From Candidatus Desulfatibia profunda (GTDB lineage: Bacteria > Desulfobacterota > Desulfobacteria > Desulfobacterales > UBA11574): a stretch of DNA of 43,128 nt. The translations under genes and the position numbers were made by a program. This document shows, piece after piece, positions 1,110-42,451 of the stretch; within the stretch, counting starts at the first letter, position 1; the number at the start of each line of letters is the position of its first letter. The notes beneath the pieces were generated by a model, which saw nothing but the letters and a program-made list of their open reading frames with translations, was not told the origin of the DNA and searched no databases. Location: the NCBI GenBank assembly GCA_014382665.1, contig JACNJH010000145.1:1-43128 (forward strand). Direction: 5' to 3'.

Positions 1110-1365
1110 TGATAGAAATAGCCGACAAATGTTAAAAAATACTGATAAAACCTTTAAAGAACATTTCACGATTCCTGCCTTTATGTTGCGAGTGCACCTA
1201 ACCTGCTGAAAATGTTTTAATATTCATCGCGGCCCCTGGAAGTTCAAATTCGGTTAAAAAACAATATGTTATAAAAGAACTATCAAATTTGCAATAAAAG
1301 TGGCAACATAACGATTTGTGTTAAAACCTTCCACATCTGACCTGATCAATGGCAACAGTAGCCGT

Positions 1366-2385
1366 TTAGAGGCTATCGAGCCATTCCAGAATATCTTTTT
1401 TATTTTCCCAATCAATTAATTCTTCTATCTTCGAATCACAAGAGAGATTGGATTGGATATATTCGATAAATTTTTTCTGGACAGCTTGCCTGCGATTCAG
1501 GTCCATATGCAAGTACACCATAGTGGATTGGATATTTTCATGACCCAGGCGGTTTCTGATATCAGAGACTGGCTTACCGCAAGAGAGCATTCTTACCGCA
1601 CACGCATGCCGGAAGCTATGGACCGGATTGATATCTTTAAGACATTTAGAACTTAAAGCTTTGGTCAGATATTTTTTACAGATTCGATAAATACCGTGTC
1701 TGGTAAGTTCTGTTCCGCGTTGATTGATAAACAAGCGGTGTTGATACAGCAGTTTTGGTTTAACACGGTATTTGGTGATGTAGACTTTTATGAGCTGGAC
1801 GGTTTTCGGGTTTAGTTCAATCAGTCGAAAACGGTTTCCTTTACCCAGGATGGCCAGCGTTTTTTGGTCGGGGTTAAAATAATCGAGGTTAAGCGTTGCG
1901 ATTTCACTGGCTCTGGCGCCCGAGTCTTCGAGCAGATGCAAGATGGTATAGTCGCGGAAGCCCTCCTTTTTTTTGAGGTCGACCGATTCAAAGACGTTAA
2001 GGATTTCATCGGGGTACAAAAAGCCGATGAGTTGTTTTTGCGTACGTTTTTGAGGGATGCCCAGTATCCTTTCGGCGATTTCACGGTGTTCCGAGCACAT
2101 AAACCGGATCATTTTAGCCAGGGATTTTATAGCTGCCAGACGATGGTTCCGTGTACTGGTGACATTGTTGCGATCTGACTCAAGGTAATCGAGAAAGGCC
2201 AGGATCAAATCGGAAGAAAGATGTTTGACCCTGAGCGATTCGATTTTGATGGAAAGGTGCCGGGCAGCAAATGGCAGAAAGAGTGTAAAGGTATCCCGGT
2301 AAGCTTGAATAGTTCGCTTACTGCTACCCTTTATACGGGGAAGGTACTGATCGAAGAATTTATAAATACAGGTGGAAAGTTTCAT
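1366..2385 (-). CDS. ritC: tyrosine recombinase, third of trio (RitC-like)
   Basis: A 339-aa phage-integrase-family site-specific recombinase. It has an N-terminal SAM-like core-binding domain (about residues 1-110) and a C-terminal catalytic domain. Visible catalytic residues are R158 (SGARASE), H256-S-F-R259, H282 (LGHEN) and the nucleophile Y291 (VYLHMD). It would cut and rejoin DNA through a 3'-phosphotyrosine bond. Its ATG (2383-2385) overlaps the stop of the second recombinase (ATGA), so it is the last gene of a coupled leftward operon of three recombinases. Three adjacent, overlapping tyrosine recombinases are the defining feature of recombinase-in-trio (RIT) elements. The A/B/C name rests on gene order. 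Confidence 0.85.
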   Translation of the reverse strand: MKLSTCIYKFFDQYLPRIKGSSKRTIQAYRDTFTLFLPFAARHLSIKIESLRVKHLSSDLILAFLDYLESDRNNVTSTRNHRLAAIKSLAKMIRFMCSEHREIAERILGIPQKRTQKQLIGFLYPDEILNVFESVDLKKKEGFRDYTILHLLEDSGARASEIATLNLDYFNPDQKTLAILGKGNRFRLIELNPKTVQLIKVYITKYRVKPKLLYQHRLFINQRGTELTRHGIYRICKKYLTKALSSKCLKDINPVHSFRHACAVRMLSCGKPVSDIRNRLGHENIQSTMVYLHMDLNRRQAVQKKFIEYIQSNLSCDSKIEELIDWENKKDILEWLDSL

Positions 2386-3356
2386 GTATCCTCGCGATTA
2401 GAGAAAACAAAGTCAGCCAACCCTTTACGTTGCTCGGCATCTAATACTTTAAGATATTTGATGGTGTGCTTGTATTTACAGTGGCCCATATAGATAGCCA
2501 GCACGGGCAAGGCATTTTGGGGCGACCTGCCCTTTTCTTTGACACGCCTTAAGGTATTTACAGCAAAAGAATGCCTTAGACTGTGGGGCACAGGTGCACT
2601 GAAGACGGTGTTGCCAATAATCTGTCGAGCCTGATTGAGTCCGATATCTTTTACCGCCTGGTGGTAGGCAGAACGAATTTGATAATCTCTTACCATTTTT
2701 TGTTTATTGCGCGCTAAAAGGTATGGGTTTTGATCCTTGCCCAGCAAGGCATTTCGTACGGCCAGATAATTGTTGATTTCATCTGCCGCAGATAAAGGGA
2801 TCGGGATTAGGCGGTCTTTTTTAAATTTGGTTTTTTCAATATAAAGCGTTTTTTCGTCTGGGCGGTAGTGGCTGCGCAGCAGTCGCAGGGGTTCTGAGAT
2901 TCTCATTCCGCACCGGGCCAGTAGAACAATAGCAAGATAGACGCATAAATCTTTCAAATAGTATTTTGGGTATTTTCGTATTCTTTTACAAACGGCACCC
3001 AAGAGTTGATCGAGTTGATCTGGTGAGAAAACAAACGGGATAAATCTATTTTCAGACAGCGGTGGGATATCATGGAGAGGATTTGTTGTGTAGAGTCCCT
3101 TTCGCACCAGAAATTGAAAAAAGTCACGTGCGGTGTAAAGAACTCTATTTGCTGATGTTGGTTCCATTTTAAGATTTGCTCTTAACTCAAGAAAAAATGA
3201 AGGTTGTAATAAACTTCTCTCGTGCTTTGTTCTTTTTAGGTACCGGTCAAAAGTTTTTAGATGAGACCATAAAGTCTTTGTCGCATAGCCCAAGTTTTGA
3301 CGATAAGCCATAAACGCTTTAAGTTGGGGAGCAAGAAAGCTTTCAAAGTTCTTCAT
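2382..3356 (-). CDS. ritB: tyrosine recombinase, second of trio (RitB-like)
   Basis: A 324-aa tyrosine recombinase. I chose the ATG at 3354-3356 because GGAAGG lies about nine bases upstream and the protein then begins with a normal SAM-like domain (MKNFESFLAPQL). A longer frame exists but would run far into the preceding gene. Catalytic residues are R152 (CGMRISE), H258-S-L-R261, H292 (MGHCK) and Y301 (IKYLKV). The start overlaps the end of the first recombinase by 14 bases and the stop overlaps the start of the third by 4, so all three are coupled. In RIT elements the three recombinases are thought to act together in moving the element; individual roles are not settled. Confidence 0.85.
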   Translation of the reverse strand: MKNFESFLAPQLKAFMAYRQNLGYATKTLWSHLKTFDRYLKRTKHERSLLQPSFFLELRANLKMEPTSANRVLYTARDFFQFLVRKGLYTTNPLHDIPPLSENRFIPFVFSPDQLDQLLGAVCKRIRKYPKYYLKDLCVYLAIVLLARCGMRISEPLRLLRSHYRPDEKTLYIEKTKFKKDRLIPIPLSAADEINNYLAVRNALLGKDQNPYLLARNKQKMVRDYQIRSAYHQAVKDIGLNQARQIIGNTVFSAPVPHSLRHSFAVNTLRRVKEKGRSPQNALPVLAIYMGHCKYKHTIKYLKVLDAEQRKGLADFVFSNREDT

Positions 3357-4566
3357 CAAACAGTACCTTCCGCATGAGTTTAATGTGAATATGAAGATAT
3401 TTTCGAGTGGCCTCGATACTGTCGTGTCCCAGCATTTCTTTGATCTCATAAATCGACACACCGGCTTCCAAAAGGTTTTGAGCATAGGTATGCCGGAGCC
3501 AGTAAGCTGTCGAAGAAGGATGAATCGCTTTGATACATTGACTTACATATTGACCGACCACACCCGGACAAAGTGGCCCATGGGGCACTTTAAGGCTTAA
3601 AAACAGTATTCTGTGTTTACTCTCAGGTCTCACGCCGACCAGGTAGGCGGCGATGGTTTTGATGGTGATATCGGGTAGCGGCAGTTTGATGGGATTATCG
3701 CTTTTTCGGGTTCTAAGCGTCAGCTCTTTCTTTGTAAAGGAGATATCATCCAGGCTGATCCGGCTTATTTCCTGTGGCCGCAGTCCTAAAGTGTAGGCCA
3801 GATGTACCATAGCACAGGTGCGAATATCTTTTGAAGAAGAAAGCTTTAAGCCGGCAAAAATCCCTTGTACTTCCTGCGGTCGCAGAAACTTAGGTGGTTT
3901 GGCCTTGGCAAACATAGGAGCGCCGACTACCAGCGGTGCAAGATTTCTTTTTATAATTTTTCGCTCCTGATACAAATATCTTAAAAATCCCCGAATCATA
4001 GAGCGGTAGGTCTTGCATGTTGCCGGTGTAAAGGGCGCAAAAAATTCTACCAGGAAAGTATCTATCTGCTCGATCGTTAACGATGAAAGATTGATTTTAT
4101 GTCTTTGCAGGTAAGCATGTAGAGCAGTAAAGACTCTTTTGATCCGCTTAATTTGCTGATAAGCAATGCCATGGCTTCTTTGGTGATGGGCCAAATAATC
4201 TTCATAGATTTGCGGCAACCGATACTCTTTCTTTGCTATAGGCTGTGGAATTTTGTTTTGTCGGAAAAGATACCGTGAAATTCCTGTAATTGAATGGGTC
4301 GCAGCAACGGCATGTACTTTTTTAAAGCGCCGGAGCGTTTGTAATTTAAAAATCTCATCCCAGCCCAATCGGCTTTGTTTGATAAACCGAATAAATTGGT
4401 CGAGTTGCCGATGATAGTTTCGCCGGGTTTGACGCCTGTATCCAACAGATTCCATCCACTGCAAATAATCCGCGACTGCCCGCTCCAATGCGTTTACTGT
4501 CAGGCCAACTTGCTCAAGTTGCTTTTCGATCCACTCGATGGATTCTATGACGTGCTTGTCAATCAC
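3343..4566 (-). CDS. ritA: tyrosine recombinase, first of trio (RitA-like)
   Basis: A 407-aa tyrosine recombinase starting at GTG (4564-4566), only three bases after the stop of the upstream winged-helix-like gene. The N-terminal half (about 1-220) is longer than in the other two and seems to hold two SAM-like helical parts. Catalytic residues are R263 (GLRPQE), R358, H381 (LGHDS) and Y390 (RKYLHI). The usual box-II histidine two residues before the second Arg-1 position is Tyr (Y355-W-L-R358) rather than His. Length and position fit RitA of recombinase-in-trio elements. The enzyme may still be active because this His is tolerated as other residues in parts of the family. Confidence 0.85.
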   Translation of the reverse strand: MIDKHVIESIEWIEKQLEQVGLTVNALERAVADYLQWMESVGYRRQTRRNYHRQLDQFIRFIKQSRLGWDEIFKLQTLRRFKKVHAVAATHSITGISRYLFRQNKIPQPIAKKEYRLPQIYEDYLAHHQRSHGIAYQQIKRIKRVFTALHAYLQRHKINLSSLTIEQIDTFLVEFFAPFTPATCKTYRSMIRGFLRYLYQERKIIKRNLAPLVVGAPMFAKAKPPKFLRPQEVQGIFAGLKLSSSKDIRTCAMVHLAYTLGLRPQEISRISLDDISFTKKELTLRTRKSDNPIKLPLPDITIKTIAAYLVGVRPESKHRILFLSLKVPHGPLCPGVVGQYVSQCIKAIHPSSTAYWLRHTYAQNLLEAGVSIYEIKEMLGHDSIEATRKYLHIHIKLMRKVLFDEEL

Positions 4567-4569
4567 CGA

Positions 4570-4977
4570 TCAGCCTGCCTTAAAAAATCGCCCGATGATC
4601 TCCCCTGCGGATGCGGCACCTTCGTGCTGCCTGGAACCGATAACAGGTGTTGTAGATGAATTGGCTTGCGGTTTTTGCGGCAACGCAAGCACCTGGAAAA
4701 CAGTACCGTCAAAGGCGATCAGATCTTTGCCCACAAGGCTGTTTCTGGCTTCGACATATTGCTCCAGGCTCAACTGCAACAGCGTACAGATCGCATCATA
4801 GCTGTAAAATGAAAGGCCGTTGCGGTCCGAAGCCAAAATAAGGAACAAATACAACAACAGCTCTTTTTGACTCAAAGAAGCTAAAAACCCATCGGCAAGA
4901 AAACGGTGGGGAATAAAGCTAAAGCCGCCATCGATGCGCCTGATCCGTTCGGGGTCGAGAACTTTTTTCTTTATCAT
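4570..4977 (-). CDS. winged-helix-like DNA-binding accessory protein of the RIT operon
   Basis: A 135-aa protein. I place the start at the ATG at 4975-4977 (MIKKKVLDPERIRRID), with AGAGG about eight bases upstream; earlier in-frame starts would overlap the upstream gene. The middle (LSQKELLLYLFLILASDRNGLSFYSY, then AICTLLQLSLEQYVEARNSL) follows the pattern of a winged helix as in replication-initiator or GntR-like folds: a helix of hydrophobic Leu residues, a short turn, then a recognition-like helix. The remaining C-terminus is low-complexity (Gln/Ala/Ser). It is followed at 3 bases by ritA, so it probably binds DNA for or regulates the element. Function is inferred from fold pattern and context. 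Confidence 0.65.
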   Translation of the reverse strand: MIKKKVLDPERIRRIDGGFSFIPHRFLADGFLASLSQKELLLYLFLILASDRNGLSFYSYDAICTLLQLSLEQYVEARNSLVGKDLIAFDGTVFQVLALPQKPQANSSTTPVIGSRQHEGAASAGEIIGRFFKAG

Positions 4978-5002
4978 GGCCAACGCCTCTTTATTTTTTG
5001 GC

Positions 5003-5398
5003 TTAACCGTAGCCTCGACGGGGAAATTCATCCACAATGACACCCAAACATCCGCAAAAATGGCAATGTGGCGTTTTCTCCAAATGAAAAATACGACTCC
5101 AAACACGCCATAATAGCTCCATACACCATGCCGGTAGGACTGTTGTAGATGCATCATCCATGTTTTTTTGATTTTTTTTACTCAGACCATACCGACGACG
5201 GTTTTCGGCTTGGCGGTGGGCTTTTTTGCCTTTAAGAGTTTGGCGATATCGCCTTTGGGCCTCGCGGTGGTTTTTGCGTTTGCCGGCAAGACGGCATTCA
5301 TCACAGCAGTAAGCCTGTCCTCTCCAACAACACCGACAGACATAAAAAACAAAACCACACCAGCTACAACGAACTTGACGTAATAGCAGAATTGACAT
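5003..5398 (-). CDS. cysteine-rich zinc-finger-like protein, first gene of the RIT operon
   Basis: A 131-aa protein with a Cys cluster at the N-terminus (C11-x2-C14, C21, C23/C24, C31/C32, C35) followed by a strongly basic segment (REAQRRYRQTLKGKKAHRQA, about residues 45-65). This is the look of a small zinc ribbon plus a DNA- or RNA-binding tail. It ends 25 bases before the winged-helix-like gene and heads the leftward operon. The ATG at 5396-5398 has GGAGG only about two bases upstream, so the exact start is uncertain; an upstream or internal alternative codon is possible. Proteins of this type accompany mobile-element genes in other Proteobacteria as far as I recall; its precise role is unknown. 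Confidence 0.6.
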   Translation of the reverse strand: MSILLLRQVRCSWCGFVFYVCRCCWRGQAYCCDECRLAGKRKNHREAQRRYRQTLKGKKAHRQAENRRRYGLSKKNQKNMDDASTTVLPAWCMELLWRVWSRIFHLEKTPHCHFCGCLGVIVDEFPRRGYG

Positions 5399-6013
5399 GC
5401 CTCCGTGCTTGCAAGCAGCCGGAGAATGTAGTAGAAAAGAAGTATCATGGTGGAGCTTCCGGCTGTTGGCGGCAGCTCTTCTTTAAAGCCCGAAGATGCA
5501 CCTTCGGGCTTTTCATTTTATCCTTTCGGGATAATTGCAAAATATCTGCAAAGAATTCAATGAGTTTTTTCAAAAAACTTTCTCCGAATAGTGCCTCTGA
5601 TGCGATGAAATATAATCACCGGAAAGACTCTTTCCGTTAAACCGAAATAATATAAATGTTAGCGGGCCGAGCTGGATGAAAATGCGGGGTGAGAAAATTA
5701 TATGGAATAAAAAAAATTAAAAGGAGTTTTAAAACCCTTCGGAAGGAAATGGAATTATATGGGAATTAAATTCACAACATAACTAAACTGACAACCTAAC
5801 TGCCTTGCCTGCAAAACACTCCAGGAGCGGTATAGATTGGGGTTCGGAATCATCTATCCGCATCTTGTACTATCTGCAATGTTGGTCAGGCGCTATAAAA
5901 TCATTTAAATTTAATGATATGTGATATGTATCTCGTTTGGCATACCATCATCATCTCATCCATGGGTTGTCTTCGGGATCGCTTGTAATTGGACTTATGC
6001 CGGCAGATCTCAT
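5399..6013. other. non-coding spacer between RIT operon and metacaspase
   Basis: About 615 bases without a convincing gene. It holds a 10-bp palindrome GCTTGCAAGC near 5407-5416, a strong 11-bp-stem hairpin (separate entry), a small hairpin GGAAAG-act-CTTTCC near 5620, and AT-rich DNA. One RIT end probably lies here, and the promoter of the leftward RIT operon must lie in the first part. Confidence 0.4.
5485..5512. terminator. strong hairpin, terminator-like
   Basis: AAAGCCCGAAG (5485-5495), a 6-base loop ATGCAC, and CTTCGGGCTTT (5502-5512) form a perfect 11-bp stem with A- and T-tracts at the two ends, so it could end transcription in either direction. Read leftward it would stop transcripts coming from the metacaspase operon before the RIT genes. 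Confidence 0.65.
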
Positions 6014-6829
6014 TTACTCTGCAAGGACACGCCATTTGGTCCGCTGCTGCCAGGAACCGGAAAGTTGGGGTGTCTGAGGATAATTGACGTTGGGCAATAT
6101 TTTTCGAATCTCCCTGTGCCAATCGCTATAAGTAGCATTGCCCGGCAGGTTCATGAGTGTCTGCAGCGCCGTATAGGTGAATGCTCCGTTTGATCGTCCA
6201 TTGAACAAAGCGTCGTAGCTGTACTCCTCGTCCTTGCAACCAGAGAGCAGAACAGCCGCTGCCCGGATTTTCCCATTGGCCTTAACCTTTTCCGCTCGCC
6301 GCGCCCTTCTCAAGCGAACTTCGTCATTTTTGATGTAGATTTCCGGTGCCAGGAACCGGATTTTCTGAAAGGCCTGGTAATCGCTTGCGGTTCCCGGCAT
6401 TAGGTTGCATGCTCTAGTTACAGTTCCTGAATGGCACGAGTCGCTGATAACAATGATCCGAGCCCCTCGCGCTCGTTTGCTCAAGATCTCGTAAAGCTCG
6501 TCGTCTGTCAGGATCTGTCCCCGAGTGATATCATGTGGGCAAAAAGCCTCATCGCGCCCATCTACTTCGTCGCCGTCTTCATCCGGCACCCAGGTGCCAT
6601 GTCCCGAGTAAGTGATGACAGCGATATCATCATGGCCTGTGTCGCCCACGATCTTGGATAGGGCCTCAATCATATTGCTCTTGGAGGCTTCGGCGTCGAG
6701 AAGCGCGAGTGTCTGGAATCCGCGGGCCTCCAGATTCTCTTTCCAGTCATTGGCATCGTTAACGCAACCGGAGAGATCGCTACCTGTACCAGGGTAGTCG
6801 TTGATTCCGATGTGAAGTGATCGTTTCAT
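6014..6829 (-). CDS. metacaspase-like caspase-fold protease (peptidase family C14)
   Basis: A 271-aa caspase-fold cysteine protease, close to the size of a bare catalytic domain. The catalytic dyad is visible: H77 in YSGHG and C132 in SDSCHSG, with acidic D130 two residues before the Cys as in metacaspases, which cut after Arg/Lys. The start region (LHIGINDYPGTGSDLSGCVND) and the DEDGDEVDGRDEAFCPHD loop are typical. There is no signal peptide and no fused sensor domain. Its ATG (6827-6829) overlaps the stop of the upstream small membrane-protein gene, so the two are coupled. In bacteria such proteins serve in programmed cell death, stress or defence signalling; which applies here is not shown. 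Substrate unknown. Confidence 0.85.
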   Translation of the reverse strand: MKRSLHIGINDYPGTGSDLSGCVNDANDWKENLEARGFQTLALLDAEASKSNMIEALSKIVGDTGHDDIAVITYSGHGTWVPDEDGDEVDGRDEAFCPHDITRGQILTDDELYEILSKRARGARIIVISDSCHSGTVTRACNLMPGTASDYQAFQKIRFLAPEIYIKNDEVRLRRARRAEKVKANGKIRAAAVLLSGCKDEEYSYDALFNGRSNGAFTYTALQTLMNLPGNATYSDWHREIRKILPNVNYPQTPQLSGSWQQRTKWRVLAE

Positions 6830-13284: not shown

Positions 13285-14031
13285 ATGAACAATCTTCCTT
13301 ACATGACCGTTTACGATCCTATCGGATACGGTGAAGGTTCGCTTGATCCGCTGGGGCTCTATCTTGTTGCCGATCAGCTGGCTATGAAGCTCGTTCCAGG
13401 CGTGCGAGAACGTATGCGCCGGGTGCGCTTTCTCACTCCAATGGCAGTTGGAGCGCTTGTTACCGAAGGTTTGGAAGCCAATCCGCGCCACCCTGAAACG
13501 CCCCCCTTTCTGGTTTGGGAATGGCTCGTCGTCGAGGCCATTATCCGGTCATTTGGAGATGATCAGGACCATCGCGTATGGGGACTGCCGGGCAGCCTGG
13601 TCGTTCGCAGAGCTATTACACAATACAATTATGTTGATCACCGCAGTTATTTAAAAACGCCCACAGTTTTCGGCTTTCATGGTGTGTACAAACGCTTGGC
13701 CGTCTATCTGGGGATTGTCGACACGCAGATGCGCTTCTGTGAAGCCAAAGGGCTCAAACTGATAGACAGATGGAGCAGGGATCAGGGACTCGGTGATTTT
13801 AACCATTCCCATAACCTTTGCGCCATTTGGCGCAACATGCCGCCGTGCTGGGCAATGTTCATCTCGATCCTGACCCGGACGGGATCTACCGCCGTGTCAA
13901 GCTGTTTGGTGTTTTTGATGGCAAGGTTTTGCCTTCCCTGGGTCTGGGGACTTACCTGGCGGCAAATCCGCAAGGCCGGATCCGGATCGATTACAATAAG
14001 CTGGATATCGGAGGAACGATCGTACCGATAG
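13285..14031 (+). pseudogene. unknown protein, 3'-truncated and joined to foreign frame
   Basis: An open frame from the ATG at 13285 (an ATG at 13303 is an alternative; neither has a clear ribosome binding site). The first ~175 residues read as a real, mostly helical soluble protein (MTVYDPIGYGEGSLDPLG; FLVWEWLVVEAIIRSFG; VFGFHGVYKRLAVYLGI). From about 13805 the frame runs antagonistically over the adenylate cyclase gene and stops making protein sense. The true protein is thus cut off near ...DRWSRDQGLGDF. I do not recognise the family. It is most likely the 5' part of a gene destroyed by a rearrangement whose other side is the cyclase gene. Confidence 0.5.
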
Positions 14032-15423
14032 ACAGGCAGGGCAATGCTGTTTTGCGCTACCGGGGGCCCTCGGGCACGCACAAGGCATACAGTGCGGCCG
14101 CGATACTGCAGTCCGAAATCCGGATGCTTTCCGGCGAAACGCCCACAATTGTCGAAAAAGATGCGTTCAAGGACAAATATGTGCTGTTTGGATTTTCGGC
14201 GCCGGGTCTGTATGACCTTCGTTCGGCGCCCGTCAGCGGCGTATATCCCGGGGTAGAGATCCAGGCAACCATGCTCGATAATTTTATTTCCGAAGATTTT
14301 ATGCAGACGGTACCCTCCGGGCTAATTGTCGTGCTTGTTATCATTTTGGCCCTGGCCGGTGCGGCGGGGGTCTCTATTTTCAGTAGTGTCACGGGAAGCG
14401 TGGCAATCGGTGCGATATCGGTGACTTTACCGGTGCTGCTTGCCCTGGGGGCATACGTGGCCGGGTTCTGGCTGCCGCTGGTGGTCCAGGAAGTTGCCGC
14501 AGTCGTGTCAATTGTCCTGGCGCTGGTAGTCAACTACGCTACCGAAGGCCGCCAAAAACGGTTCATTAAAAGTGCGTTTAAACAGTATCTCAGCCCGGAA
14601 GTTATCGAGCAGCTCATCCAGCAACCGGAACGGTTGAAACTGGGCGGTGAACGCAGGGTTCTTTCCATCTTCTTTTCGGATTTGCAGGGCTTTACCTCCA
14701 TATCCGAGGGGCTTTTGCCCGAAGAACTCACCGCACTGTTAAACGATTATCTTTCAGCCATGACCGATATTATTTATGAAGAGGGGGGCACCGTAGACAA
14801 GTATGAAGGTGATGCCATTATCGCCTTTTGGAACGCACCCCTGGAAGTGAGCGGACATGCGGTGCGGGCTGTCCGGGCTGCGCTGCGCTGCCAGGCCCGC
14901 CTGGCACAGATGCGGCCGGAATTCAAGGATCGGATCGGTAAAGACATGTTTATGCGCATCGGCATCAACACCGGTCCGGCCGTGGTCGGCAACATGGGCT
15001 CGCACAACCGCTTCAACTACACCATGCTGGGCGACGCCGTGAACCTGGCGGCCCGATTGGAAGGCGTCAACAAGCAGTTCGGCACCTACACCATCATTTC
15101 ACGGTCAACCAGGGACATGCTCGCCGGCGTGTTTTCCGCACGGGAACTGTCCAGGGTGGCCGTGGTGGGCCGCAAGGAACCGGTTACTGTTTTTGAGCCC
15201 ATGTTTTTAGAAGAATATGAAGTTCGCAAAGATATTTTCGAAACATTTGCCCAAGGCTTGGCGTTGTTTTATGAAGGCGATTTTTCAAAAGCTTTAAAGA
15301 TTTTTTCCGCCATTCACGATCTTGATTCGGCCGCGGCCGCCTATCTATGCTGAAAAGTGCCGGTTTCTGGCGGCTAACCGGCCTGAGGACTGGCAGGGCG
15401 TGTGGGTCATGACCAGCAAATAG
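13818..15423 (+). pseudogene. CHASE2-domain adenylate/guanylate cyclase, truncated at 5' and frameshifted at 3'
   Basis: The main frame (13818-15353) lacks the N-terminal ~200 residues of the family: it starts within the CHASE2 sensor (AAVLGNVHLDPDPDGIYRR). It then has the rest of CHASE2 (ending YPGVEIQATMLDNFI), three hydrophobic segments (about residues 165-255), and a class III cyclase domain with metal-binding Asp in FSDLQGFTSIS and GDAIIAFWN and the catalytic NYTMLGDAVNLAARLEG. The stop at 15351 follows a tandem CTATCTAT; removing one CTAT restores the expected tail (YAEKCRFL...DWQGVWVMTSK), ending at 15423. No ATG start exists near 13818 (only TTG). A broken membrane cAMP/cGMP signalling gene. 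Confidence 0.8.
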
Positions 15424-21465: not shown

Positions 21466-22033
21466 AGATGAAAGTGAGCGAAAGGTTGTTTTTCTGGACC
21501 GGGACGGTGTCATCAACCGCGATTCTGCGGAATACATCAAGAGCTGGTCCGAATTTGAGTTTCTTCCCGGAAGCTTGGAAGCAATCAGACGTCTGACGTT
21601 GAGAGGATTTACAACCATCGTCATTACGAACCAATCGGTGATCAATCGCAACATGACATCCAGAACGGGGCTGGAATATATGCACACCATGATGAAGACC
21701 GCCGTTCGGGCTCATGGCGGCGAGATTAAAGACATTTTTTTTTGTCCGCATATCCCGGAAGACCGATGCGACTGCCGTAAGCCGAAGCCGGGTTTGATTT
21801 ATCAGGCCAGGCATAAGTACCAAGTCGATCTTGCAGCGGCGGTCATGGTCGGCGACAGTGCCAAGGATATCGAGTGCGCGCGCAACGCCGGATGCGGTCA
21901 TGCCGTTCTGGTCCATACCGGAAAAGGAGCTGCCGCCGAGAGCATCCTCAAAGCCAAGAAGATTTTCCCCGATTATGTCGCCCGGGATCTTTTGGATGCC
22001 GTTGACTGGATACTGTCCATATATGATACCTAG
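21437..22033 (+). CDS. gmhB: HAD-family D-glycero-D-manno-heptose-1,7-bisphosphate 7-phosphatase
   Basis: A ~198-aa HAD histidinol-phosphatase-type enzyme. The nucleophile motif is VVFLDRDGVIN, motif II is VITNQS, and the late motifs are CRKPKPG and MVGDSAKDIECARNAG. The zinc loop CPHIPEDRCDCRKPKPG marks the GmhB subgroup, which removes the 7-phosphate in making ADP-heptose for lipopolysaccharide core. There is no ATG; I use the GTG at 21437 with GGGGA upstream, but TTG at 21431, 21443 or 21449 could serve. All lie inside the end of rlpA, so translation is coupled. It ends 11 bases inside the recD2 start. Confidence 0.82.
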   Translation: MPLPLRKISEDESERKVVFLDRDGVINRDSAEYIKSWSEFEFLPGSLEAIRRLTLRGFTTIVITNQSVINRNMTSRTGLEYMHTMMKTAVRAHGGEIKDIFFCPHIPEDRCDCRKPKPGLIYQARHKYQVDLAAAVMVGDSAKDIECARNAGCGHAVLVHTGKGAAAESILKAKKIFPDYVARDLLDAVDWILSIYDT

Positions 22034-23608
22034 CCCGCCGGATTCCGTTACCACCCTTGAGGGACAGCTGGAACGCATCAGCTATTTTAACGCCGAGAGC
22101 CATTATACCATCGCAACCTTAAAGACCAGCAAAACGGATAATCTTGTGACGGTTGTCGGGCCGATGGCAGGCGTGAGTGCGGGGCAAGGCCTCAGACTCA
22201 AAGGCACATGGGAAACACACCCCAAATACGGCCAGCAGTTTAAAATTGAATCCTATGAGATAACGTTGCCGGCATCGGTAGGCGGTATCAAGAAATACCT
22301 GGAATCCGGCATAATTAAAGGGATAGGGCCTTCAATGGCCACCAGGCTGGTTCGTCGCTTTGGCTCCGAAACGCTTGAGATCATCGAAAAGCATCCTGAA
22401 CATCTTCTTGAAGTTGAAGGTATCGGAAAAGCAAAAGCAGCATTAATCTGCAATGCCTGGAGAGATCATCATGTCATCAGGGGCTTGATGCAGTTTTTGC
22501 AGGAAATGGGCGTCAAAGCTTCGTTTTGCGCCAGGATATTCAAGGAATTCGGTCTTGATGCTGTCAACGTTATCCGCAGGGATCCTTATCGTCTGGCCAA
22601 CGATATCCCGGGGATCGGTTTTTATGTTGCCGATGCGGTTGCCCGCAGACTGGGTGCACCGAAAGACGATCCCAAAAGGATGGGGGCCTGCATTCGGCAT
22701 TTGATGAAGCCTCCATGGTGGATATTGTCTTGATGTTTCATTTGATGCAGGCCGTACCCATGACGGCTGTTTTGATATTGGTGGGTGATGTTTTTCAGCT
22801 CCCGTCCGTAGGCCCCGGAAATGTCCTTGCCGACATGATCGCCTCCAAGCGCATACCGGTTTATTATCTTCATAAAATCTTCAGGCAGGCCCATGAAAGC
22901 CCTATCGTCGTAAACGCCCACCTGGTTCGCCGGGGTGAATTTCCGGCTCTCACAAAGCTGGATGCATCCCAAGACCTTTCAGAGTTCTATTTTATCCAGC
23001 AGAGCGATCCTGATAAGGTTGCCGCCACAATTGTTGAATTATGCAGCCAGGCGATTCCCAGGCGTTTTGATTTTGATCCGGTGCACGAAGTTCAGGTGCT
23101 CACACCGATGCATAAAGGAGTGGTCGGGACCACCAACCTGAACCAGGTTCTTCAGAACGTGTTGAACCCAAACCCTGTGCTGATAAAAACCCAAGGCAGC
23201 GTCTTCAAGTCCGGTGACAAGGTTATGCATTTGAAAAACAACTATCAGAAGGAGGTCTTCAACGGAGATATCGGAACGATAAGCACTATCGACCGAAAAA
23301 ATGAGGTGCTGTCGGTGGACTACTACGGTCGAACCGTCGATTATGATTTTTCAGAGATGGACGAAATCTCGCTGGCATATGCCATATCGGTACATAAATC
23401 CCAAGGGTCTGAGTATCCGGCGGTAATTGTACCGATCGTGACTCAGCATTTCGTTTTGCTCCAGCGAAACCTGCTTTACACCGCAATTACACGGGCTACA
23501 AAACTGGTTATTCTGATCGGTACCCAAAAAGCCCTTGCCATTGCCCTGAAAAACAATAAACCCCGCAAGCGTCTCAGCAGTCTCGCTGTTCAACTTCAGG
23601 GCAACTGA
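22023..23608 (+). pseudogene. recD2: RecD2-type helicase with internal deletion and frameshift
   Basis: The 5' part (22023 to about 22710, ATG start overlapping gmhB) encodes the RecD2 N-terminal OB-like region and helix-hairpin-helix motifs (GIIKGIGPSMATRLVRRFG; VEGIGKAKAALI; DIPGIGFYVADAVARRLG). It then breaks off. A second frame picks up at F-DEASMVDIVLM (Walker B, from 22700) and continues through motif III (VGDVFQLPSVGPGNVLAD), KVMHLKNNY and LAYAISVHKSQGSEYP to LLQRNLLYTAITRATK. The whole stretch between, with Walker A, is missing (about 200 residues compared with full RecD2). Without Walker A and with the frame broken, a working 5'-3' helicase cannot be made. Confidence 0.85.
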
Positions 23609-40144: not shown

Positions 40145-42451
40145 TTATTGCACTGATCCTGTTATTTGAAACGCAGCCCAGAAGTATGGATGGGAATTAT
40201 AGGTATCTTTGACCTTCAATTGCGCTAAGCGCAGCGCGCTCCGTTTGTCACTTTCTTTTAAGGATTTGTAAAACTCCTGCATCAGGATGGAGGTTGCTTT
40301 GTCATCAACTTTCCAAAGGCTGGAAACGATTGAACTTGTCCCTGCGTAAAGAAAACCACGGGTAAAACCGACCACGTCGTCGCCGTTGGCCACCTTGCCC
40401 AGTGCAGTTTCACAGGCGGAAAGGGTCACCAAGTCGGCAGGCAAACGCAGATCGTAAAGTTCTCCCACTGTAAGCGTACCATCATTTTCACTATCGCTGG
40501 ACATTAGCAGGCCAGATGACAATGGTTTTTCCGCATCAAATGTTCCATGAGTGGCAAAATGAAGATAGCGGAATCCAGCGCCATATTGTTTTACGGCAGT
40601 CTCTGTGGCTTGGCTACGGAGGAGCAACTTGGATTTGGGTTGGTCTTTTGTTATTGCTATCACTTCATTTTGGGCTCCAGGCAAATCATAAGTCGGATCA
40701 CCCAAATCAGGATTACCAAAGGCAAGCAAATTGCCTGCATGACCTTCACGCCGATCTTTTAGGAACTTCATAACACTGGCGCTGGGTAATACCCGTATAT
40801 TGTATCTGTCGATCAGATATTCCTCCCCTGAATTAAGCGCATTGAATGGCAGATAGTGAAGCGCTCCATGAGGGACAATGGTAAGATTTGTTGATTGAAT
40901 TGTCCTTTCTAAAGGTTTAATTAGCTTTTCGTATAAGGATTGACCCTCCAATTGGCATTGGTAGGAGTCTCGACTCATAATATGCTGTCTAAACAACTCT
41001 ATCCTCCGCCTTAAGTCTTTTACATCCAGCTTCACCCCTTTTACTTGGTCACGGTTGACTATGAATGCATAGAATGTATCTCCAGACCCAAAGTATTCGA
41101 TCAAGGTTTCTCTCGGTGGGATCAATTGTTGGATTCCTGCAATGTCAGGCTGGGTAACAGTTACAAGGGATGCCAGTTCGGGGTCGGCTATCTTAATTTC
41201 TCTTTTAAGCTTGATGACAATAGCACGTTGTTTGCTGGCCTGATCTAAATTAACAGTTCCATCCTGTACAGTAGATTCGTATTCTGCTATGTATAGCTTT
41301 GCAAGCAGTTCAGTTGAATCCTTGAGCTTTTCATTAACCCCAGCAAATCGCTCACGAGCAGATAGCATATCAACCAAAGCCCGTGCTTTAGCCCTTTCAA
41401 CGTACTCAAATGCCTCTGAATATTGGCCTTGATTAAATAGCAGAGCGACTATGTTGTTGTAAACTTGCTGCTTGTCACCAACAAATCCAATTTTCCCTGC
41501 TTCAGTATTAATATTAGCTCTGTGCAGTTCAATTACATTAACTGCAAGTTGATAAAACTTTATTGCTTCTTTCCTATTTCCTTCCGCAAGCGATATGGCT
41601 CCTCTATCTGCTAAAATTTGATAATAGATCGAGGCATTGGTTTCAATGGCTGGATGTTTTAAAAGCTCGTCATAACCAGCCTTTGACTTTATAAAATCCC
41701 CCGTTTCAAAATGTATCTTTTGATATAAAAAGTTCTTCAGTAAATCTTCATATTCGGAACGATTACCAGCACCTATTCTATAAAAAAATGGAGCACCCCC
41801 ATAACTCTCTAAAAAGCTTTTAGCTCTATTATAATCCCCGAGTGCAACACAAATCTTTATCTTTCCTAACTGCAGAATTGTATATAGTGCATCCCCTCTA
41901 ATTACTGCTTTGTAACTTTCAAGCTTTTCAAGCATATTTAATGCCTTCTCTTTTTCCCCAGATAACGCATATGCAACCCCTAATCGACCAAGGGCATCGA
42001 TATAGGGATAATCGGTACTTTTCCATGCGCTAACGCCTTCAGCAGTAATAAAATTTAAACTTTTTTCTCCATATTGAATTGCCTTTTCCCAATCACCAAG
42101 TTCTAAGAATGCCTCAGATTTTAAATTGTAAGCTCGGGTTTTGAATATCGTTTCAGTAAAGAATTGACCAAGTGCGTTAACCTCCGTTTTTTCAATCTTT
42201 TCCATCTTATCTGTGCACCTAAAAAAATCATTGTACTGCCTAACAGTGAGATAAGATGGGCACAAATAATAGAGGTCTATGCCTGAAGCCGACTCTAAAC
42301 CCCCATTTTTATTCACTGTGTTTATAATGCCATAGTGATCACCAGAGGAGTATTGGCTTTGAATTGTTGAAGCGCACCCGCCTAATAGGAAAAATATCAA
42401 AATTATGAAACCTAATGATTTAATCGTAGATGGTCTATTTATAACAATCAT
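40145..42451 (-). CDS. TPR-CHAT lipoprotein (caspase-fold protease)
   Basis: A 768-aa protein. A signal peptide ends in the lipobox LGGC (C26), so it is likely lipid-anchored facing the periplasm. A TPR array follows (about residues 95-350: for example AYNLKSEAFLELGDWEKAIQYGEKSL, EAFEYVERAKARALVDM). The C-terminal CHAT domain (about 480-765) has the catalytic dyad H635 in FATHG and C680 in SACETALG. CHAT proteins are caspase-like proteases, as in the Craspase/TPR-CHAT partner of type III-E CRISPR and other death/defence systems. Here there is no CRISPR array in the window. Substrate and trigger are unknown. Confidence 0.88.
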   Translation of the reverse strand: MIVINRPSTIKSLGFIILIFFLLGGCASTIQSQYSSGDHYGIINTVNKNGGLESASGIDLYYLCPSYLTVRQYNDFFRCTDKMEKIEKTEVNALGQFFTETIFKTRAYNLKSEAFLELGDWEKAIQYGEKSLNFITAEGVSAWKSTDYPYIDALGRLGVAYALSGEKEKALNMLEKLESYKAVIRGDALYTILQLGKIKICVALGDYNRAKSFLESYGGAPFFYRIGAGNRSEYEDLLKNFLYQKIHFETGDFIKSKAGYDELLKHPAIETNASIYYQILADRGAISLAEGNRKEAIKFYQLAVNVIELHRANINTEAGKIGFVGDKQQVYNNIVALLFNQGQYSEAFEYVERAKARALVDMLSARERFAGVNEKLKDSTELLAKLYIAEYESTVQDGTVNLDQASKQRAIVIKLKREIKIADPELASLVTVTQPDIAGIQQLIPPRETLIEYFGSGDTFYAFIVNRDQVKGVKLDVKDLRRRIELFRQHIMSRDSYQCQLEGQSLYEKLIKPLERTIQSTNLTIVPHGALHYLPFNALNSGEEYLIDRYNIRVLPSASVMKFLKDRREGHAGNLLAFGNPDLGDPTYDLPGAQNEVIAITKDQPKSKLLLRSQATETAVKQYGAGFRYLHFATHGTFDAEKPLSSGLLMSSDSENDGTLTVGELYDLRLPADLVTLSACETALGKVANGDDVVGFTRGFLYAGTSSIVSSLWKVDDKATSILMQEFYKSLKESDKRSALRLAQLKVKDTYNSHPYFWAAFQITGSVQ

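Follow-up and report, generated by a model that had tools for sequence, protein, structure and literature searches.

The 43,128-nucleotide stretch of Candidatus Desulfatibia profunda analysed here (GenBank contig JACNJH010000145.1; hereafter the window) contains what is, on our best reading of the sequence, a complete RIT-family transposable element belonging to a distinct clade centred on Desulfobacterota. Two accessory genes precede its three tyrosine recombinase genes, and we lean towards the view that they constitute an exchangeable control or accessory cassette within the element.

The original prediction, made from the bare sequence, had proposed a coupled operon at positions 1366-5398, with three intact recombinases preceded by a cysteine-rich (Cys) and a winged-helix-like protein at gaps of 25 and 3 bases. 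Gene order, intactness and spacing are all confirmed. Five intact genes run on the minus strand from 5398 to 1366, encoding the Cys-rich protein, the winged-helix (helix-turn-helix, HTH) protein and the tyrosine recombinases (YR) YR-A, YR-B and YR-C; the Cys-HTH gap is exactly 25 bp and the HTH-YR-A gap exactly 3 bp, YR-A and YR-B overlap by 14 bp, and YR-B and YR-C by 4 bp (ATGA). The coordinates are right for the gene block, but the element itself extends further on both sides:

1181-5799 (4,619 bp), minus strand, operon running 5799 to 1181: complete element, delimited by conserved end motifs with exact 6-bp direct repeats just outside
5003-5398, minus strand: accessory gene 1, type-II Cys-rich basic protein of 131 aa, with an N-terminal Cys cluster and a C-terminal CxxC...FPRRGYG
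4570-4977, minus strand: accessory gene 2, HTH_36 winged-helix protein of 135 aa (Pfam PF13730)
3343-4566, minus strand: RitA-type tyrosine recombinase (YR-A) of 407 aa with a GTG start, assigned by Pfam and tree, with two core-binding-like stretches
2382-3356, minus strand: RitB-type tyrosine recombinase (YR-B) of 324 aa, assigned by Pfam and tree
1366-2385, minus strand: RitC-type tyrosine recombinase (YR-C) of 339 aa, assigned by Pfam and tree

Desulfosarcina alkanivorans has two full copies of such an element. Elsewhere in the genome of the window lie another intact element with all five genes (contig C292; HTH 59-61%, YR-A 60%), a third, fragmentary trio (contig C129; YR-A 78%) and another Cys gene bearing the same leader (contig C111), and the five-gene order is found again in dozens of other genomes, which excludes an assembly artefact or chance as its source. 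The anatomy of the element is well supported.

All three recombinases match Phage_integrase far over the cut-off. To place them, we built a quick tree in which the window's trio and twenty of its relatives were joined by six trios that are canonical or distant, with the genome's own Xer proteins, GInt-like integrases and one IS91-type integrase also included. Every A protein falls into one group with canonical RitA, every B protein into one with RitB and every C protein into one with RitC (SH-aLRT 94, 98 and 99), and within each group the accessory-bearing elements make up one subclade beside the canonical members (100, 99 and 100). The GInt-like integrases (L080) lie outside the three Rit clades on long branches, and the GInt/SE set (GinA, GinB, GinC/Tfp, GinD/Srap) is not what the element encodes, as all three recombinases resolve as RitA, RitB and RitC. 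RitA has been described with two core-binding domains and RitC with an extra C-terminal helix (PMC8138268). YR-A likewise shows two core-binding regions, with SAM-like core-binding matches at residues 42-72 and 121-209 ahead of the catalytic domain (226-393), and YR-C carries a tail of about 35 residues past its catalytic domain, the match to which ends at residue 295 of 339. Judged by the tree, the trio is a genuine RIT in the order RitA-RitB-RitC; the identity originally proposed stands, the recombinases grouping with RitA, RitB and RitC as it required.

The cassette is a nearly constant feature of this clade. Searching 291 genomes of the host's class with HTH and RitA and pairing the coordinates yielded 63 RitA-clade hits, 48 of them with HTH directly upstream. 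Among the other 15, nine have a DnaG-type CHC2 zinc finger in the place of HTH (PF01807, E 4e-7), four lie at a contig end, one is truncated and one has neither HTH nor CHC2 within 414 bp. One or the other gene therefore precedes the trio in 57 of the 59 testable members (48 HTH_36 plus 9 CHC2), and upstream of it there is nearly always one of four kinds of Cys-rich gene, which we label types I-IV. The same leading genes, which the original prediction proposed to look for in other RIT loci, are thus present in nearly all clade members. Variants of the arrangement include a single case of an in-frame fusion of HTH and RitA, giving a protein of 530 aa (L058, 6870-8462), a divergent type-II-like Cys gene about 200 bp ahead of HTH (L065-L070 in genome G184), and a type-IV Cys gene, missing from the annotation, that immediately precedes RIT trios on plasmids of Marinobacter, Cupriavidus and Rhizobium (L218, L219, L220). 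Most RITs on alpha- and betaproteobacterial plasmids have no cassette; among plasmid records, a RitC relative occurs in 556 and HTH in only six (Caballeronia), where it accompanies IS21.

The original interpretation is supported. Beyond it, the pair, nearly constant in this clade, is not a property of RITs: it also precedes IS21 transposases. An HTH alignment run against 84,980 species genomes returned 279 relatives, and we examined the loci of 80. Nearly all loci with enough sequence have a Cys gene before HTH and either RitA or IstA after it, often with a 4-bp overlap; in some, HTH is followed by a ParB-like gene and then IstA and IstB. The 98 distinct HTHs comprise 53 linked to RitA, 33 to IstA, 4 to ParB plus IstA and 8 to other genes, and on their tree the label of the linked enzyme changes 15 times. 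This tree is short of columns and has few strong branches, hence we tested the topology directly: a single clade of RitA-linked HTHs is rejected (log-likelihood difference 109, p-AU 2.3e-6). The cassette has therefore been exchanged between RIT and IS21 elements. In the host genome itself, an IS21 preceded by the same cassette lies on contig C84, and another cassette-bearing IS21 is found on Caballeronia plasmids. In plasmid records, type-II Cys genes stand ahead of IS21 in Burkholderiales, type-I genes stand beside serine recombinases with ParB and RepB genes, and type-IV genes stand directly ahead of trios in Marinobacter and Rhizobium.

Several individual loci illustrate the range of contexts. 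On Burkholderiales plasmids (L215, L217), a type-I Cys gene comes before a large serine recombinase and genes for ParB and a RepB C-terminal protein, and a set of IS21 loci (L034, L036, L150, L152-L159, L214) read Cys, (HTH), ParB-like, IstA, IstB, with pHRM2a adding CHC2 after istB. Two candidate observations were discarded: an HTH-IstA fusion of 631 aa (L079), whose HTH part is frameshifted before the join, and, as a cassette, a Cys gene near the RIT of P. phytofirmans OLGA172 (L212), which belongs to an IS21 whose istA is interrupted by that RIT. With the exchange in mind, it is about evenly balanced whether the cassette as a whole is a plug-in passed between unrelated recombinases (the tyrosine trio and the IS21 DDE transposase; the Cys gene, by itself, is also found beside serine recombinases) that acts as a control or recruitment module made of a Cys-rich protein plus a winged-helix protein or primase-type zinc finger, sometimes with a riboregulatory leader.

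The boundaries of the element were set from genomes holding several near-identical copies, namely five in G110, six in G184 and three in G131; near-identical copies at five sites in G110 and six in G184 point to past movement. In the window, the ends comprise the following features:

5800-5805, no strand: flanking 6-bp repeat CTGCCT (AGGCAG on the minus strand), upstream side, identical to 1175-1180
5790-5799, minus strand: terminal recombinase site of the upstream end, TTAGGTTGTC; consensus of the relatives TTATGTTGCC
5773-5782, minus strand: second direct site 17 bp inwards, TTATGTTGTG; the 17-bp spacing is kept in most relatives
1302-1312, minus strand: internal direct site GTTATGTTGCC, 54 bp past the YR-C stop (50-58 bp in relatives)
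1181-1189, plus strand: terminal site of the downstream end, inverted, TTATGTTGC, 177 bp past the YR-C stop (174-181 bp in most relatives)
1175-1180, no strand: flanking 6-bp repeat CTGCCT, downstream side, identical to 5800-5805

This structure recurs in about 20 relatives: the upstream end of the clade has two direct TTATGTTG-type sites 17 bp apart, and at the downstream end the YR-C stop is followed by an internal direct site at about 54 bp and, at about 177 bp, by a terminal one in inverted orientation. Terminal inverted TTATGTTGC-type sites are present, with a second site clear on the left only; the canonical RITs L083 and L085 show both, and their paired end sites have the same 17-bp spacing. 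In relatives with both end motifs found, the 6-mers just outside are identical in most and agree at 5 of 6 bases in a few. The 6-base match entered the scoring of this end table, but the motif scores of the entries quoted are high even so, and it played no part in the scoring of two other end analyses.

The multi-copy genomes reveal how these 6-mers behave. In G110, one copy (L062) has ATCTAT on the left and GTCTAT on the right, another (L063) has the reverse, and the other three have GTCTAT on both sides. Unoccupied copies of the target repeat of L063 in three other species (L203, L204, L209) read GTCTAT, so that its left 6-mer is the target's own; a further copy of the repeat in G110 (L226) reads GTCAAT. 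In G184, the right 6-mer is CCGGCG in every copy, and the left is CACCGG, GAACCG, CAGTCG or CCGGCG. From these patterns, the left 6-mer belongs to the target and the right one is imported with the element, the same polarity as reported for SE elements and Tn554 (PMC10214605). A plain target-site duplication is ruled out, as the flanking 6-mers differ in several copies. We propose that RitA, RitB and RitC recombine the two element ends, which once joined would flank a 6-bp core with two TTATGTTGC-like sites in inverted orientation; a spacer of this length would correspond to the usual core of a tyrosine recombinase site, and the circle junction would read GCAACATAA-N6-TTATGTTGC. The circle, or a copied-out circle, would then integrate at a core-like target, often within or beside dispersed intergenic repeats, the target keeping its own 6 bp on the left and gaining those of the element on the right.

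The downstream flanks of many other elements start with GGCAAG or a near variant, so the target is picked by sequence. The window's element adjoins a dispersed repeat:

5806-5905, no strand: copy of a dispersed intergenic repeat adjoining the element, with 75-86% matches lacking the element in G248, G260, G293, G134 and G254

This repeat is family-wide (L196 62-320 and window 5806-5905), with element-free copies in several members of the same bacterial family and a tandem 61-bp array in G293; the G110 element likewise lies inside a dispersed repeat family. The ends and direct repeats that the original prediction had proposed to map by comparing empty sites were obtained from the multi-copy relatives. 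No clean empty site turned up for the insertion in the window: all that matched were related repeats from other species, the one in G248 differing in length by 7 bp. As for the canonical RITs, L083 (~2660) and L085 (~6080) are inserted precisely at the codons for the Walker-B motif (DVLLLD) in istB genes, and the RIT of L212 interrupts an istA; canonical RITs may target IS21 genes.

Ahead of the Cys gene, the type-II leader has three candidate helices:

5485-5512, minus strand: leader hairpin P1, AAAGCCCGAAG-N6-CTTCGGGCTTT, about 90 nt ahead of the Cys gene; 4 of 11 pairs compensatory
5416-5465, minus strand: leader helix P2 (5455-5465 with 5416-5426); 5 of 11 pairs changed on both sides, 77% of cells paired
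5400-5425, minus strand: leader hairpin P3 over the GGAGG ribosome-binding site of the Cys gene; 5 of 8 pairs changed on both sides

P1 followed by a CUCCGG strand occurs in all type-II Cys genes of the clade, before RitA and ParB-IS21 alike. This strand can pair either upstream (P2) or downstream with the ribosome-binding site (P3), and P2 and P3 are mutually exclusive because both use it. Across 14 sequences, nine pairs of P1+P3 are changed on both sides, and their covariation exceeds that of all 500 shuffles and of slid versions; P1+P2 is likewise above both controls, with weaker pairing. Low folding energy is found in 9 of 10 type-II leaders and in 15, 38 and 0 percent of those of types I, III and IV. 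The P1 hairpin is not seen in the divergent type-II-like Cys genes (L039, L065) or the Burkholderiales ones, and an Rfam search with the leader gave no match. A T-rich tail follows P1 on the plus strand; two IS21 versions have their T run on the sense strand instead, so that P1 could be a terminator there.

Taken as a control gate, the cassette would work at the level of translation, which would begin at the Cys gene, its ribosome-binding site held inside the hairpin, and pass by coupling through HTH to the recombinases. The Cys protein, zinc-binding-like, and the winged-helix protein would bind nucleic acid, setting expression or recruiting DNA or host factors. Since it serves enzymes that differ in chemistry and ends, the cassette most likely controls expression, recruits host factors or does both, and is less likely to bind the RIT ends; a generic role of this kind would account for its position ahead of both tyrosine recombinases and IS21 DDE transposases. 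Several points weigh against a control gate. Canonical RITs mostly lack the cassette, so it is dispensable for RIT chemistry as such. The structured leader accompanies only the type-II Cys gene, so an RNA gate cannot be all that this class of cassette does. The P2/P3 switch is itself tentative, P2 being paired in 77% of cells and the start codon in the window lying unusually near GGAGG. Lastly, the modelled plasmid-initiator-like fold of HTH, together with CHC2, fits recruitment of replication no less well than it does regulation.

The main rival is thus recruitment, which we regard as possible though clearly less probable than the gate: HTH or CHC2 would bring the element to replicating or single-stranded DNA or help copy-out, with the Cys protein helping in target choice, a service usable by any recombinase. 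The winged-helix protein matches Pfam HTH_36 over the gathering score (E 1.8e-6), and a PDB profile search with the HTH alignment returned nothing. Its AlphaFold model (pLDDT 79) comes nearest, weakly, to the DNA-binding domains of RepA_N plasmid initiators (5kbj, 4pt7, 4pql, 4pta; Foldseek E 0.009-0.03, TM 0.45; VIA Z 8.5 over 82 residues, root-mean-square deviation 2.7), and a DnaB primosome protein is among the lower-ranked matches. These likenesses, the replacement of HTH by DnaG CHC2 in some elements, the sharing of the cassette by unrelated recombinases and the copying-out thought to occur in related SE elements (PMC10214605) all favour recruitment. At a Foldseek E of about 0.01, TM 0.45 and Z 8.5, the fold match is nonetheless weak, the winged helix is a generic fold, and nothing here points to replicative movement. 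The Cys-rich protein gave no Pfam or NCBIfam family over the cut-off and no weighty PDB match, and a structure search with its model found no significant match. Repeats in type-I Cys genes, such as LAKMDA, were considered as DNA iterons and discarded; the intervening residues are conserved too, which makes them protein repeats.

An Xis-like or architectural role for the accessory proteins, binding at the element ends, is unlikely; on this reading the additional sites, 17 bp inwards of the left end and 123 bp inwards of the right end, would be theirs. Many tyrosine-recombinase elements do require such factors, lambda Xis and Tn916 Xis being examples, and the conserved sites besides the terminal inverted pair could serve them; yet 17-bp-spaced sites also occur in cassette-free canonical RITs and so look like recombinase sites, and passage of the cassette between YR and DDE elements is hard to reconcile with end-specific binders. 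That Cys and HTH are passengers without a role in movement, as the majority of plasmid RITs, which manage without both, might suggest, is very improbable: in 57 of the 59 clade members that could be tested they occupy a fixed position before the transposase gene, overlapping or a few bases apart, they have been regained repeatedly, whole or in part, and in one case HTH is fused in frame to RitA (L058).

Among the closest described systems are RIT elements such as that of Cupriavidus metallidurans CH34 (ritABC; PMC2864759, PMC3414803), which share the three adjacent, overlapping recombinases in the order RitA-RitB-RitC. Their end sites are likewise of the TTATGTG type, with a 17-bp spacing between two of them (cf. 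L083/L085). In the literature, a RIT comprises three genes spanning about 3.5 kb, its end repeats are not convincing (PMC3414803), and its target specificity is listed as not tested (PMC10214605). Canonical RITs have terminal inverted repeats of 34 bp. The window's element differs in forming a separate subclade, in its length (4.6 kb vs about 3.5 kb), in the two accessory genes and leader ahead of ritA, and in ends that, for its clade, resolve to a 6-bp core with one extra site per side; convincing core and arm sites were not found in the 2012 paper. Many IS21 members (IstA DDE transposase, IstB ATPase) carry the same Cys+HTH cassette before istA, some with the same leader hairpin, but their chemistry and ends differ and no istA or istB lies inside 1181-5799. 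SE/GInt and Tn554-type elements are also tyrosine-recombinase elements that carry 6 bp from the donor's left to the new site's right (PMC10214605), a likeness that for Tn554 is drawn from the literature on the 6-bp behaviour alone; they differ in their recombinase subfamilies and in their small accessory proteins (Tfp, Srap/GinD, TnpC), and are not known to carry a Cys/HTH_36 cassette. The type-IV Cys-bearing RITs of Marinobacter pMAQU02 and Rhizobium etli (L218, L220) share an unannotated Cys-rich gene directly before the trio but have this single accessory gene, no HTH, and a trio nearer to canonical RITs. Accessory genes of this kind were not found for RIT or IS21 in the open-access literature; an earlier mention in subscription papers (e.g., Ricker et al. 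2013) is possible.

Outside the element, the window contains an adjoining gene for a caspase-like protein (6014-6829, minus strand; C14 type, with SGHG and DSCHSG motifs) and, at its opposite end, one for a large tetratricopeptide/CHAT-like protein (40145-42451, minus strand). A CHASE2-adenylate cyclase-like gene (13285-15353, plus strand) is broken up into two frames that overlap (13285-14031 and 13818-15353), perhaps through a frameshift, and a RecD2-like helicase gene (21831-23608, plus strand) lies in two frames with its middle apparently gone.

RIT elements are abundant, yet their ends, their choice of target and their need for three recombinases have remained unexplained. The multi-copy relatives now define the ends exactly and reveal a 6-bp core, the direction in which the 6 bp are transferred and target copies without an element, making RIT movement directly testable. 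Exchange of the cassette suggests that transposition is controlled, or the host contacted, at a level independent of recombination chemistry.

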